Assembly (NCBI GenBank): GCA_024684455.1
Contig: JAIKWU010000036.1
Location: forward strand, 1-64,000
Direction: 5' to 3'
Origin: Bacteroidaceae bacterium
GTDB taxonomy: Bacteria > Bacteroidota > Bacteroidia > Bacteroidales > Bacteroidaceae
Length of the DNA: 64,000 bases
How positions within the stretch are numbered: the first letter of the stretch is position 1; every line of letters begins with the position of its first letter. Made by a program: the position numbers and the translations under genes. The notes beneath the pieces were generated by a model. It had not been told where the DNA came from and did not search any database. It was given only the letters and a program-made list of their open reading frames with translations. Of the stretch, positions 13,712-34,755 are shown one piece after another.

Positions 13712-15526
13712 TCAGGCTAAATAAAGTTGCATCATGCAGTTCTGGCAATCGAAGGCCAGACGAAAACGCGCACCATTCTCAAGCGAAAGGAACAACTCTT
13801 TCGGACCTTTCGCACCACCACGTTTCTGACACCACCCCATTGCATAGCGCAAGCAATGGCGGCATGTCATCACAGGCACATCGGCGCGGTGCTGCAACTC
13901 AAACGCAGGTTCAACTTCGCAGCCCTGCTGCTCATAAAAAACACGAGCAAGGCTGTTAGAAACATTTATCGGTTTGTAGGGGCATGGCTTGTCCATGCCC
14001 TTCTCATTTGTTGGGCATAGACCAGCTATGCTCCTACTCTTCGACAATTCTCCAACCAGTTCACGCCGCCATTCCGCCAGCACAGAAGAGGGGATAAAGT
14101 AATTCTTCTTCAATAATATATTTAAGGAGCGCAGGCGATACGGCGTGTCTCCGAGGCGCGAAAGTTGCCGCTGAATATTGTCGGATTGGTGAGTGCGGGC
14201 AAGTTCTGCAGCATATTCCTTGCGAATGAAAACCTGGCGCACACCATCATCGACAGCGAGAAGAAACGCCTCGCCGTCGTAGTCGAGCGTGAGGTCGAGA
14301 GGCACGGTGCGTGTAGCACTCTCCTTTGCCAAAATATCGTTGAAAGCCTTGTCGAAATTGCGGTAGAGCACCATCCCTGGCAGCAAGTCGTGCGGCACGG
14401 GATAAGGCCACACACGGCTGCCCTCCACTCGGTTCACACGGAGCCCAATCAACTTCTTCGCTCGGTTGAAGAAACAGAGGCCGTCGCCATTCTCCAACTT
14501 CACATCCCCCTCTAACACCAGACTTCCCTTGCCGATTTCTTCTACACGCCCCACTTCTACGCCAACGGATTTCGGCGTATCAAAAGAAAAGATATCGGGG
14601 TTACGTCCAAAAAGAAAATAATGAGTGAAGCCGCGATTGAACGACTTGCGCACATCAGGACGGAACTTCAGTTGCACCACGCCGCGCGAACTGCGGCGGT
14701 AACGGTCCGGAAATTTGGCGCACAGGGCATCTAGAGCCTCGCTGTAGGCAGCCGTCACATTCTTCACATACGCCATATCCTTCAGCCGCCCCTCAATCTT
14801 GAACGACGTGGCGCCAGCCTCGGCCAACTCCTCCAACACATCCAGTTGGCACAAGTCTTTGAGCGACAGCAGATGCTTCTTTTCCAGCAACTTATGTCCC
14901 TTCTCATCCTCCAGGTCAAACTCCATGCGGCACACCTGTGCACAGGCACCACGGTTGGCACTGCGACGGAACAGCGCTTCGCTCGCATAGCAACGGCCGC
15001 TCAGACTGACACACAGCGCGCCATGCACAAAGACCTCCAGACTCACGTCGGAACACTGCTCATGCACCTGCCGAATCTCCTCCAGCGACAGTTCGCGCGC
15101 CAGCACCACCTGTTCCGCGCCCATGTCACGCAGCCACTGCACCTGCTCCACCGTGCGGTTGTCCATCTGCGTCGATGCGTGCCAACGGCCGCCACAACGC
15201 CTGACGATGTCCACCATCGCCAAGTCCTGCACAATGAACGCATCCACACCGATCGCCAGCAAATCCTTCACAAGCCGCTCCACCTCAGCCAGTTCGTCGT
15301 CATACAGCAACGTGTTCAGCGTCACATAAACCCGTGCGTCAAACACATGAGCATAAGCCACCAGCCGCGCAATATCCTCAACCGAGTTGCCTGCAGCCTG
15401 ACGTGCTCCGAACCGCTCCGCACCAATATACACAGCATCGGCACCGTGGCGAATCGCCTCGATGCCAATGTCGGCTGTACGTGCCGGAGCCAGAAGTTCT
15501 AACTTATTCAATCTTACTGATGTCAT
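13712..15526 (-). CDS. U32 family peptidase (RlhA/TrhP-like)
   Basis: LELLAPARTADIGIEAIRHGADAVYIG...FVHGALCVSLSGRCYASEALFRRSANRGACAQVCR. Confidence 0.9.
   Translation of the reverse strand: MTSVRLNKLELLAPARTADIGIEAIRHGADAVYIGAERFGARQAAGNSVEDIARLVAYAHVFDARVYVTLNTLLYDDELAEVERLVKDLLAIGVDAFIVQDLAMVDIVRRCGGRWHASTQMDNRTVEQVQWLRDMGAEQVVLARELSLEEIRQVHEQCSDVSLEVFVHGALCVSLSGRCYASEALFRRSANRGACAQVCRMEFDLEDEKGHKLLEKKHLLSLKDLCQLDVLEELAEAGATSFKIEGRLKDMAYVKNVTAAYSEALDALCAKFPDRYRRSSRGVVQLKFRPDVRKSFNRGFTHYFLFGRNPDIFSFDTPKSVGVEVGRVEEIGKGSLVLEGDVKLENGDGLCFFNRAKKLIGLRVNRVEGSRVWPYPVPHDLLPGMVLYRNFDKAFNDILAKESATRTVPLDLTLDYDGEAFLLAVDDGVRQVFIRKEYAAELARTHQSDNIQRQLSRLGDTPYRLRSLNILLKKNYFIPSSVLAEWRRELVGELSKSRSIAGLCPTNEKGMDKPCPYKPINVSNSLARVFYEQQGCEVEPAFELQHRADVPVMTCRHCLRYAMGWCQKRGGAKGPKELFLSLENGARFRLAFDCQNCMMQLYLA
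13976..14037. repeat. Palindromic repeat element inside U32 peptidase gene
   Basis: GTAGGGGCATGGCTTGTCCATGCCC (13976-14000) vs reverse complement of 14013-14037 GTAGGAGCATAGCTGGTCTATGCCC (21/25 identical). Confidence 0.85.
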
Positions 15527-32051: not shown

Positions 32052-32558
32052 ATGAGAAGATTTATCTTCTGTTTGCTAATGCTGTGGACTTGTACGTCAT
32101 TATGGGCACAGAAACCGTTTGAAGAGGACGGCGAAGCGTCGTACTACGGCTCTGCCTGGCACGGACGACGAACAGCGGACGGCGGCATCTACGACAAAGA
32201 TGCGCACATCTGCGCCCACAAGACACTGCCCTTTGGAACACGTATCAAGGTGACGAACAAGAAAAACGGGAAATTCACCATCGTCACCGTAACCGACCGT
32301 GGACCCTACGGTCGCGGTCGCATCGTCGATCTCTCGAATGCAGGAGCCCGCGACATCGACATCATCCGTTCTGGTGTTGCCCCCGTCCACCTCGAAGTGC
32401 TACCGCCAGAACTGGAGGTCTGCGTTGATTCCATTATGCAACAAATGCAAAAGCGGAACCTGATGTTGGTTCCGCTGCTCGAGACTCAGCCCACATGGCG
32501 TGGCCTTACACTAATGCAGATAGATTCGCTCACCCACACGTTTGGCAAGCGCCCGTGA
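32052..32558 (+). CDS. RlpA-family septal ring lytic transglycosylase
   Basis: EDGEASYYGSAWHGRRTADGGIYDKDAHICAHKTLPFGTRIKVTN...VTDRGPYGRGRIVDLS. Confidence 0.9.
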   Translation: MRRFIFCLLMLWTCTSLWAQKPFEEDGEASYYGSAWHGRRTADGGIYDKDAHICAHKTLPFGTRIKVTNKKNGKFTIVTVTDRGPYGRGRIVDLSNAGARDIDIIRSGVAPVHLEVLPPELEVCVDSIMQQMQKRNLMLVPLLETQPTWRGLTLMQIDSLTHTFGKRP

Positions 32559-34640
32559 GATGGCGTTCATGCGGACGAACTGCTGCATGACTTCATTTTG
32601 CTTGTCGATGTCGCCCATGACGGCGGGATCGGCAAGTTGTTTTTTTAGCGATTTCAGTTCGTCGTTGACAATCAGGAATTTATAGTCGAGCAGGAGGCGG
32701 CTGATGTACTCGCTCATCATTTCTTCCTCGGCAGGCATCTGCTGGCTCTTGCTCAGTTGGTAACGGTCGGCGAGCAGGTCGGTGGCCTCACGGCTCATGT
32801 CGAGGTCGGGACTGCTGACAAAGTAACGGCTGCACGAAAAACCTTCGCTGCCCACGTGTTGACAAGCCTCGTCCAGCATCCGAACATAGAGCGGATGGTG
32901 GAAAGTCAGGCCGTCAATTGTGAGTTCGTGCTGCACATACTGGGCCACGCTGGCTTTCTCGTCCTTTCCCTCCAGATTGACAAACGTCATGGGCAGTTCG
33001 CCATAGCGCACCACAAGCGTCATGATCATGCGCTCCAGACGGATGTAGGGGTCATGGTCGTCCGTCATCTTCCTCTCATAGGGCGAGGGCTCAGTACCAG
33101 CCAGTGGAGTGGCGATTGTTTCAGTCTGTGGAATATCTTCTACTGAAGGCGGAGGAGGCAACTCCGTTTCTTCTTGTAGGGACGACCCGTGGGGCGTCCC
33201 GATTGGTGTCATTTCCTTTTCCATCATGGACGCCCCACGGGTCGTCCCTACAGGGGCTTGCGCCTTACGTTCTTGCTCATGCACCTGACGCTGACGTTCA
33301 CGCTCACGTTCCACCTTACGCTGCTCAAGATAGGCACGGCGCATCTTTGAGCAGTTGCGGGCAAGCATCTGCTCGTCCATGTGCATCAGTTCGGCACATT
33401 CGTGCAGGTATGTCGAACGCAGGATTTCATCGGGGATGACTTTGATGCTGTCAAGAATGTTGTTGACGAGTTGGCTGCGCTTGAGCGGGTCTTTCCCAGC
33501 CTCGCTGATGAGCAGGTTGACCTTGAAGAGGATGAAGTCGGTCTGGTGCTGCTCGACATACTGCTTAAACTCGGTGGCATTGTGCTTTCGGGCGAACGAG
33601 TCGGGGTCGTCGCCGTCGGGCAGCAGCAAAACCTTGACGTTCATGCCCTCTGCCAGCAGCATGTCGGTTCCGCGCAGGGCAGCGTGGATACCCGCCTCGT
33701 CGCCGTCGTAAACGAGTGTGATATTAGAGGTAAAGCGGTGAAGCAGACGTATCTGCGCCTGGTTGAGGGCCGTTCCAGAGTTTGCCACGACGTTCTCGAT
33801 GCCGCATTGATGCATGGAGATGACGTCGGTGTAGCCTTCGACCATATACACCAGGTCTTCCTTCGCAATCTGCTTCTTCGCCTGGTAGATGCCGTAGAGT
33901 TCGTTGAGTTTGTGAAAAATCTCGCTGTCGTTGGAGTTGATGTACTTCTGCTCCACCCCCTTCGTGCGGCTGTCGAGTTTTCGTCCGCCGAAGGCCGAGA
34001 CCTTGCCGCTGACGTTGAACCACGGGAAGATGACGCGACCACGGAATTTGTCGATGAGACCGCCTTTGTCGCGCTTGATGCTCAGGCTGGTACGACAGAG
34101 GAAATCCTCCTTGTAACCGGCTTTCAGCGCAGCCTTAGACATGGCGTCCCACGAGTCGGGACTATAGCCCAGACGGAACTTCTCGATGATGTCGTCGCGG
34201 AAGCCTCGGTTGCGGAAATAGGCCAGGCCGACAGCACGGGCATCTTCATCCTTCAGCATCGTGTCGTGGAAGTAGCGGCTCGCCCACTCGTTGACAGCAA
34301 ACATGCTCTCTCGGTCGCTCTGACTCTGACGCTCCTCGTTGGTCATCTCGCGCTCCTTCACCTCGATGCCGTAGCGCTTGGCGAGGAACTTCAGCGCTTC
34401 GTAATAACGCAACTGCTCCTGTTCCATAATGAAGTGGACGACGTTGCCGCCCTTGCCGCAGGAGAAGCATTTGCAGATGCCACGGGCTGGATTGACATAG
34501 AACGACGGCGTCTTGTCGTCGTGGAACGGGCACAGACCTTTGTAACTCGCACCCGAGCGGCGCAAAGTCACATAGTCCGACACCACATCGACGATGTTGG
34601 CGGCGTCCATAATACGGTCTATCGTAGCCTGGTCAATCAT
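32511..34640 (-). CDS. dnaG: DNA primase
   Basis: MIDQATIDRIMDAANIVDVVSDYVTLRRSGASYKGLCPFHDDKTPSFYVNPARGICKCFSCGKGG. Confidence 0.95.
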   Translation of the reverse strand: MIDQATIDRIMDAANIVDVVSDYVTLRRSGASYKGLCPFHDDKTPSFYVNPARGICKCFSCGKGGNVVHFIMEQEQLRYYEALKFLAKRYGIEVKEREMTNEERQSQSDRESMFAVNEWASRYFHDTMLKDEDARAVGLAYFRNRGFRDDIIEKFRLGYSPDSWDAMSKAALKAGYKEDFLCRTSLSIKRDKGGLIDKFRGRVIFPWFNVSGKVSAFGGRKLDSRTKGVEQKYINSNDSEIFHKLNELYGIYQAKKQIAKEDLVYMVEGYTDVISMHQCGIENVVANSGTALNQAQIRLLHRFTSNITLVYDGDEAGIHAALRGTDMLLAEGMNVKVLLLPDGDDPDSFARKHNATEFKQYVEQHQTDFILFKVNLLISEAGKDPLKRSQLVNNILDSIKVIPDEILRSTYLHECAELMHMDEQMLARNCSKMRRAYLEQRKVERERERQRQVHEQERKAQAPVGTTRGASMMEKEMTPIGTPHGSSLQEETELPPPPSVEDIPQTETIATPLAGTEPSPYERKMTDDHDPYIRLERMIMTLVVRYGELPMTFVNLEGKDEKASVAQYVQHELTIDGLTFHHPLYVRMLDEACQHVGSEGFSCSRYFVSSPDLDMSREATDLLADRYQLSKSQQMPAEEEMMSEYISRLLLDYKFLIVNDELKSLKKQLADPAVMGDIDKQNEVMQQFVRMNAISRALAKRVGERIYLH
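33175..33252. repeat. Palindromic repeat element inside dnaG
   Basis: Perfect 25-bp inverted repeat TGTAGGGACGACCCGTGGGGCGTCC (33175-33199) / GGACGCCCCACGGGTCGTCCCTACA (33228-33252). Confidence 0.95.
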
Positions 34641-34664
34641 AGAGAGGGAAAAAAGAAGAAAGAA

Positions 34665-34755
34665 GCCCCCAGACCCCTCCCCAGCCCTCCCCAAGGGGAG
34701 GGAGATGGGGGTGCAAAAGTCCTCCCCCTCACAGAGGGAGATAGAGGGGCCTGTA
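34665..34755. repeat. C/G-rich palindromic intergenic repeat
   Basis: CCCCCAGACCCCTCCCCAGCCCTCCCCAAGGGGAGGGAGATGGGGG...CCTCCCCCTCACAGAGGGAGATAGAGGGG. Confidence 0.75.

Follow-up and report, generated by a model that had tools for sequence, protein, structure and literature searches.

A GTAG-type REP doublet in frame within the primase gene dnaG of a rumen Prevotellaceae bacterium

The dnaG reading frame contains a 78-bp inverted repeat

The window analysed here, a 64,000-nucleotide stretch of DNA, belongs to a 2.79-Mb rumen Prevotellaceae MAG (genome G000; 98 contigs, 87.6% complete, 4.8% contamination). On its minus strand lies a dnaG gene with an uninterrupted ORF, listed as 32511–34694 from a TTG; the homologous ATG is found at 34637 and yields a protein of 708 residues. 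The gene and the element inside it have the following layout, with DnaG domain bounds according to Pfam:

32511–34637, minus strand: dnaG, 708 aa; zinc ribbon (residues 2–96), DNAG_N (123–254), Toprim (~262–352), DnaB_bind (383–423), variable linker with the element (~425–530), C-terminal region
33175–33252, no strand assigned: REPIN (head-to-head REP doublet), 78 bp, in frame in dnaG, residues 463–488 on the minus strand
33175–33199, plus strand: REP arm 1, TGTAG foot and bulged GC-rich hairpin GGGACG(a)CCC-gtg-GGGCGTCC; the stem closes with C33200
33200–33227, plus strand: 28-nt spacer, resembling the spacer of other 78-bp copies of the family
33228–33252, minus strand: REP arm 2, inverted, identical to arm 1

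The two 25-nt arms (33175–33199 and 33228–33252) are 100% complementary and lie 28 nt apart, so that the perfect inverted repeat and 28-bp loop described in a first-pass annotation of this DNA are indeed present. As single-stranded DNA, positions 33170–33257 fold with –36.5 kcal/mol, compared to a shuffle mean of –12.2 kcal/mol (z = –11; none of 200 shuffles was as good), and the corresponding RNA hairpin is very stable (–62 kcal/mol). Each single arm folds into a hairpin in which the TGTAG foot stays unpaired and one A is bulged out, i.e. it displays the GTAG tetranucleotide 5' of an imperfect 20–40 nt hairpin that characterizes GTAG REPs; in doublets, a foot is located at each outer end.

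The minus-strand ORF reads through the element, as the same annotation had stated. From the third position of codon 462 onward the sequence is that of the element, which encodes residues V463–Q488 (VGTTRGASMMEKEMTPIGTPHGSSLQ); the 30-residue string previously ascribed to it contains these residues, but also flanking ones (AP before and EE after). Solved primase structures align to DnaG up to residue 428 and, together with the Pfam domains, they position the element past the catalytic core in the stretch ahead of the C-terminal region, in agreement with its earlier placement in a linker before the C-terminal domain. Judging from the open frame, the insert peptide should be translated, and its predicted tryptic peptides are GASMMEK and EMTPIGTPHGSSLQEETELPPPPSVEDIPQTETIATPLAGTEPSPYER. 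The same bin contains a second dnaG (G000:C17:486-2582; 62% identical), which probably represents contamination.

The element belongs to a dispersed, predominantly intergenic repeat family

The full arm, searched with up to three mismatches, matched the G000 genome 87 times (41 matches exact), while a reversed control pattern gave no matches; a 21-mer comprising the arm minus its first four bases (again ≤3 mismatches) matched twice in the window, compared to 0.01 matches expected from window shuffles. The 87 arm copies group into 55 sites, about 30 of which are inverted, head-to-head doublets of 71–118 bp, most often 78 bp, with GTAG at the outer ends; a few tail-to-tail pairs, one compound site, 30-bp single hairpins and solitary arms also occur. 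Based on a codon-usage gene caller purpose-written for this analysis, 53 of the 55 sites are intergenic, with the two genic sites residing in dnaG and in a gene for an AraC-type regulator. As 82% of the sampled DNA was called coding, the probability of two or fewer genic sites is about 1e-37. The family thus has the many, mostly extragenic copies typical of GTAG REPs and REPINs. Together with the absence of the element from the nearest DnaG orthologues (see below), these copies uphold the core of the original proposal, namely that a mobile palindromic element with copies elsewhere in the genome is tolerated in DnaG as a peptide insert.

Other repeats accompany the family. An intergenic repeat, GAAGTTATAGGGAACTC, and variants of it adjoin many REPINs (loci L066, L076, L082, L084, L094, L099, L101 and others). 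The window itself bears a second REP family at 13975–14038, a doublet of TGTAGGGGCATGGCTTGTCCATGCCC and an inverted, diverged partner, with 13 arm matches in the genome. Rfam returned only a tRNA in the window and no match in locus L085; an rRNA context considered for the REP copy in L085 was rejected.

Within the genus, large but distinct arm expansions are seen, of GTAGGGACG in G000 and of a GTAGAGACG variant in genomes G009 and G012. G010, G007 and G005 harbor one or two arm copies each and seven species of the genus none; outside the genus, an arm match was found in 2 of 288 other sampled family members. In GTDB r220 contigs, a search that may leave out records of the window's own genome, exact arm matches were confined to two uncultured Prevotellaceae, RUG733 and RUG483. 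RUG names denote rumen genomes. The element in dnaG is one copy of a lineage-specific REP family that has expanded in this species of rumen Prevotellaceae.

The element lies in a variable DnaG linker

The nearest DnaG proteins, those of G010 (85% identity) and G007 (78% identity), lack the element; homology to the G007 protein (L033) extends to the sequence ERKAQ, two codons short of it. Across the family, the DnaG linker varies in both length and sequence. It spans 118 residues here and 109, 113 and 113 residues in the three nearest relatives, and this difference of only five to nine residues does not match a clean gain of 26 residues or a precise empty site. Indeed, with 26 residues subtracted, the linker would be shorter than those of the relatives, which counts against the insertion reading. 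Possibly, insertion was accompanied by loss of adjoining sequence, or linker length drifted separately. The orthologue comparison that the first-pass annotation had proposed as a check thus confirmed that the nearest relatives are devoid of the element, but not a 26-residue difference in length.

Both arms of the element in dnaG have exactly the sequence most common in the family, which suggests that this copy is probably a recent arrival. We also considered that the dnaG copy could be an assembly chimera joined at a dispersed repeat, given the fragmentation of the MAG into 98 contigs, its 4.8% contamination and the second, 62%-identical dnaG on C17. However, the sequences on either side code, in a single frame, for the two halves of the same DnaG, this protein aligns end to end with that of G010 at 85% identity, and the repeat is shorter than usual reads, rendering a chimera highly improbable.

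Junctions and related transposase loci point to REP-type mobilization

No target-site duplication was found at any head-to-head doublet (34 sites of at least 60 bp checked); flank matches of 2–5 bp were restricted to tail-to-tail pairs and there belong to the repeat itself. A CT dinucleotide directly precedes TGTAG at 20 of 67 non-redundant ends (30%), compared to 5% in intergenic DNA (P = 6e-11), and at 56 of the 67 ends a pyrimidine adjoins the element. The dnaG copy ends in ...CT|TGTAG on one side and in ...CC|TGTAG on the other. Enriched CT junctions and a lack of target duplications at head-to-head doublets are hallmarks of GTAG REPs and REPINs; TnpA-REP enzymes cleave at CT 5' or 3' of a REP, GTAG is important, and the E. 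coli enzyme requires the bulge in the stem (PMC8266576).

In G000, no Y1 transposase was detected with PF01797 or NF047646 (the MAG being 87.6% complete), and a RAYT (Y1/HUH REP-associated transposase) from G321, used as a query, gave a best match of only E = 0.94. Hence no RAYT flanked by its own TGTAGGGACG REPs was found in this incomplete genome; related REPs do flank RAYTs in G012, G007 and G321. In the same genus, the RAYT-like gene of G012:C158 has CTTGTAGGGGCGGATC..GTATCCGCCCG hairpins on both sides in inverted order, and that of G007:C37 has a doublet of CTTGTAGGGGCGGATC..GTATCCGCCCG-type hairpins on one side. In another genus of the family, a Y1 gene (PF01797) on G321:C3 is bordered on either side by TGTAGGGACGCACC..GGTGCGTCC REPs, of which one lies at the gene's own 5' end. 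The RAYT-flanking REPs of the sister species and of the other genus share the head TGTAGGG(A/G)CG with the window's element. The REPs beside the RAYT-like genes of G012 and G007 were found with a generic GTAG-hairpin scan; the window's arm and its G009/G012 variant had no match in the sequences flanking the genus's PF01797 loci. We infer that the window's REPs spread by means of a RAYT akin to those of G012, G007 and G321. A candidate counterpart is RAYT (TnpA-REP) subclass 2.4, which is abundant in Bacteroidetes and in which REPs are often inserted into the transposase gene itself (PMC6006769), an arrangement seen in G321 at the 5' end of its RAYT gene.

With 25-bp terminal inverted repeats, a size of 70–80 bp and many copies, the element could also be taken for a MITE, mobilized by a DDE transposase acting on the terminal repeats. 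A DDE enzyme would be expected to leave target-site duplications, which are missing at head-to-head doublets; moreover, each arm is by itself a GTAG-tagged hairpin, solitary arms and tail-to-tail pairs occur, CT is enriched at the junctions and related REPs flank RAYT genes. We therefore regard a MITE as unlikely.

The first-pass annotation had likened the element to Rickettsia palindromic elements (RPEs), with which it shares a palindrome in frame within protein-coding genes that acts as a peptide insert (PMC10969869). Yet RPE-4 and RPE-6 are CGTC-tagged and other RPEs measure about 150 bp (PMC3733652, PMC10969869), whereas the unpaired terminal motif of the present element is GTAG and its length 78 bp; furthermore, nearly half of the RPEs lie in ORFs (PMC10969869), compared to merely two of 55 sites here. 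The GTAG foot, the bulged hairpin, the head-to-head doublets, the lack of target duplication and the CT enrichment identify a REP doublet (REPIN) rather than a Rickettsia-type RPE, and with related, RAYT-linked REPs also at hand, this assignment was abandoned. A closer parallel is provided by the REPINs of Pseudomonas fluorescens SBW25, which likewise are inverted REP pairs with a short spacer, of high copy number, mainly extragenic and able to form an ssDNA/RNA hairpin (PMC3116915). The present family differs from them in its Bacteroidota host, its own stem sequence, the lack of a RAYT found in the MAG and the presence of one copy that is intragenic and in frame.

Based on these results, the element is very probably a GTAG REPIN, most likely spread by a RAYT, that landed in frame in a variable DnaG linker where its 26 residues are tolerated. 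In this lineage, the RAYT would most likely process the hairpin in trans as single-stranded DNA: it would cleave on the 5' side of the GTAG foot, at CT-like sites, and transfer the element to a new location without target duplication. One such transfer would have placed a copy in the linker that separates the DnaG catalytic core from the C-terminal region. The reading frame survived because the 78-bp length is divisible by three and stops are missing from four of the six frames, and the variability of the linker would explain why 26 extra residues are tolerated. Accommodated in this region, the ~26 added residues are predicted to be harmless or neutral.

In-frame REPs in other proteins

Further in-frame copies were found in the same family of bacteria. 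In G000 (C5:41455), a single arm lies in frame in a 520-residue AraC-type helix-turn-helix protein, immediately N-terminal to the DNA-binding domain; at this position, the residues of the G010, G003 and G007 orthologues are unrelated. Both genic copies of G000 are thus in frame and in variable interdomain linkers. An independent REPIN on G321:C41 (L260, 2980–3095) is a full doublet and reads in frame (VGTHHGAS...DAPRCVPTFK) within a protein whose N-terminal domain is BT4734-like. Coding selection on the element's frame was considered and rejected, since nearly all doublets have four of their six frames free of stops and the frame in use differs between genes. With this many open frames, a copy will often preserve a frame if its length is divisible by three; the scarcity of copies within genes shows that most insertions of this kind are lost.

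In 2013, Di Nocera et al. described GTAG REPs with head-to-head dimers and in-frame intragenic copies encoding 20–30 residues, many of them located in genes for DNA replication and repair; they also proposed that flexible linkers tolerate inserts and noted that the GTAG tag can supply stop codons (PMC3733652). The present element shares the tag, the dimeric organization and an insert of that size; it differs in its host, as that survey (PMC3733652) assigns GTAG REPs to Proteobacteria, Cyanobacteria, Chloroflexi and the PVC group, and to Bacteroidetes CGTC REPs only. Its main text does not mention dnaG or primase (PMC3733652). The in-frame REPIN in a Bacteroidota dnaG is thus a new instance of an already known mechanism, ordinary in mechanism but a neat example. 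Such insertion of REPs in frame had been known chiefly in Proteobacteria and Verrucomicrobia; the present results add Bacteroidota, where a single family provides at least three independent cases (DnaG, the AraC-type regulator and the BT4734-like protein). Both cases with alignable orthologues sit in linkers that vary among species. In-frame REPs are a ready source of new linker peptides, here within the replication primase.

The element might instead be retained for a function in dnaG, with the mRNA hairpin slowing ribosomes between domains or tuning message decay, or with the peptide modifying the linker. The very stable RNA hairpin is compatible with this idea, and a functional effect has been speculated upon for other in-frame REPs in replication and repair genes (PMC3733652). 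However, the element occurs in dnaG of one species only and is absent from the orthologues, its arms match the commonest arm and insertion was thus probably recent, and insertion into a variable linker suffices as an explanation; retention for function appears doubtful at best. Adding DnaG and the BT4734-like protein to the earlier list of UvrA, RecB, DnaE2 and Pol I could also be read as REPs entering replication and repair genes non-randomly, with in-frame copies possibly modulating the very machinery of replication whose ssDNA is thought to be the substrate of RAYTs, a reading that we deem speculative and improbable.

In G009, many REPs overlap the last bases of ORFs such that the TAG of the GTAG foot serves as the stop codon (L168, L170, L176, L183, L198, L205 and others), as also reported for GTAG REPs elsewhere (PMC3733652). 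Among the G009 REPs, no in-frame internal copy was found; one REP is located near the end of a 172-codon predicted ORF. Finally, at L225 (G010:C157), a RAYT domain (NF047646, 88 bits) lies in frame within a 1188-residue open frame that, judged by eye, resembles a DNA methyltransferase, and this domain is flanked on both sides by in-frame repeats, NRSAGVSPAS(D/Y)ITAGGT, that are palindromic as DNA.
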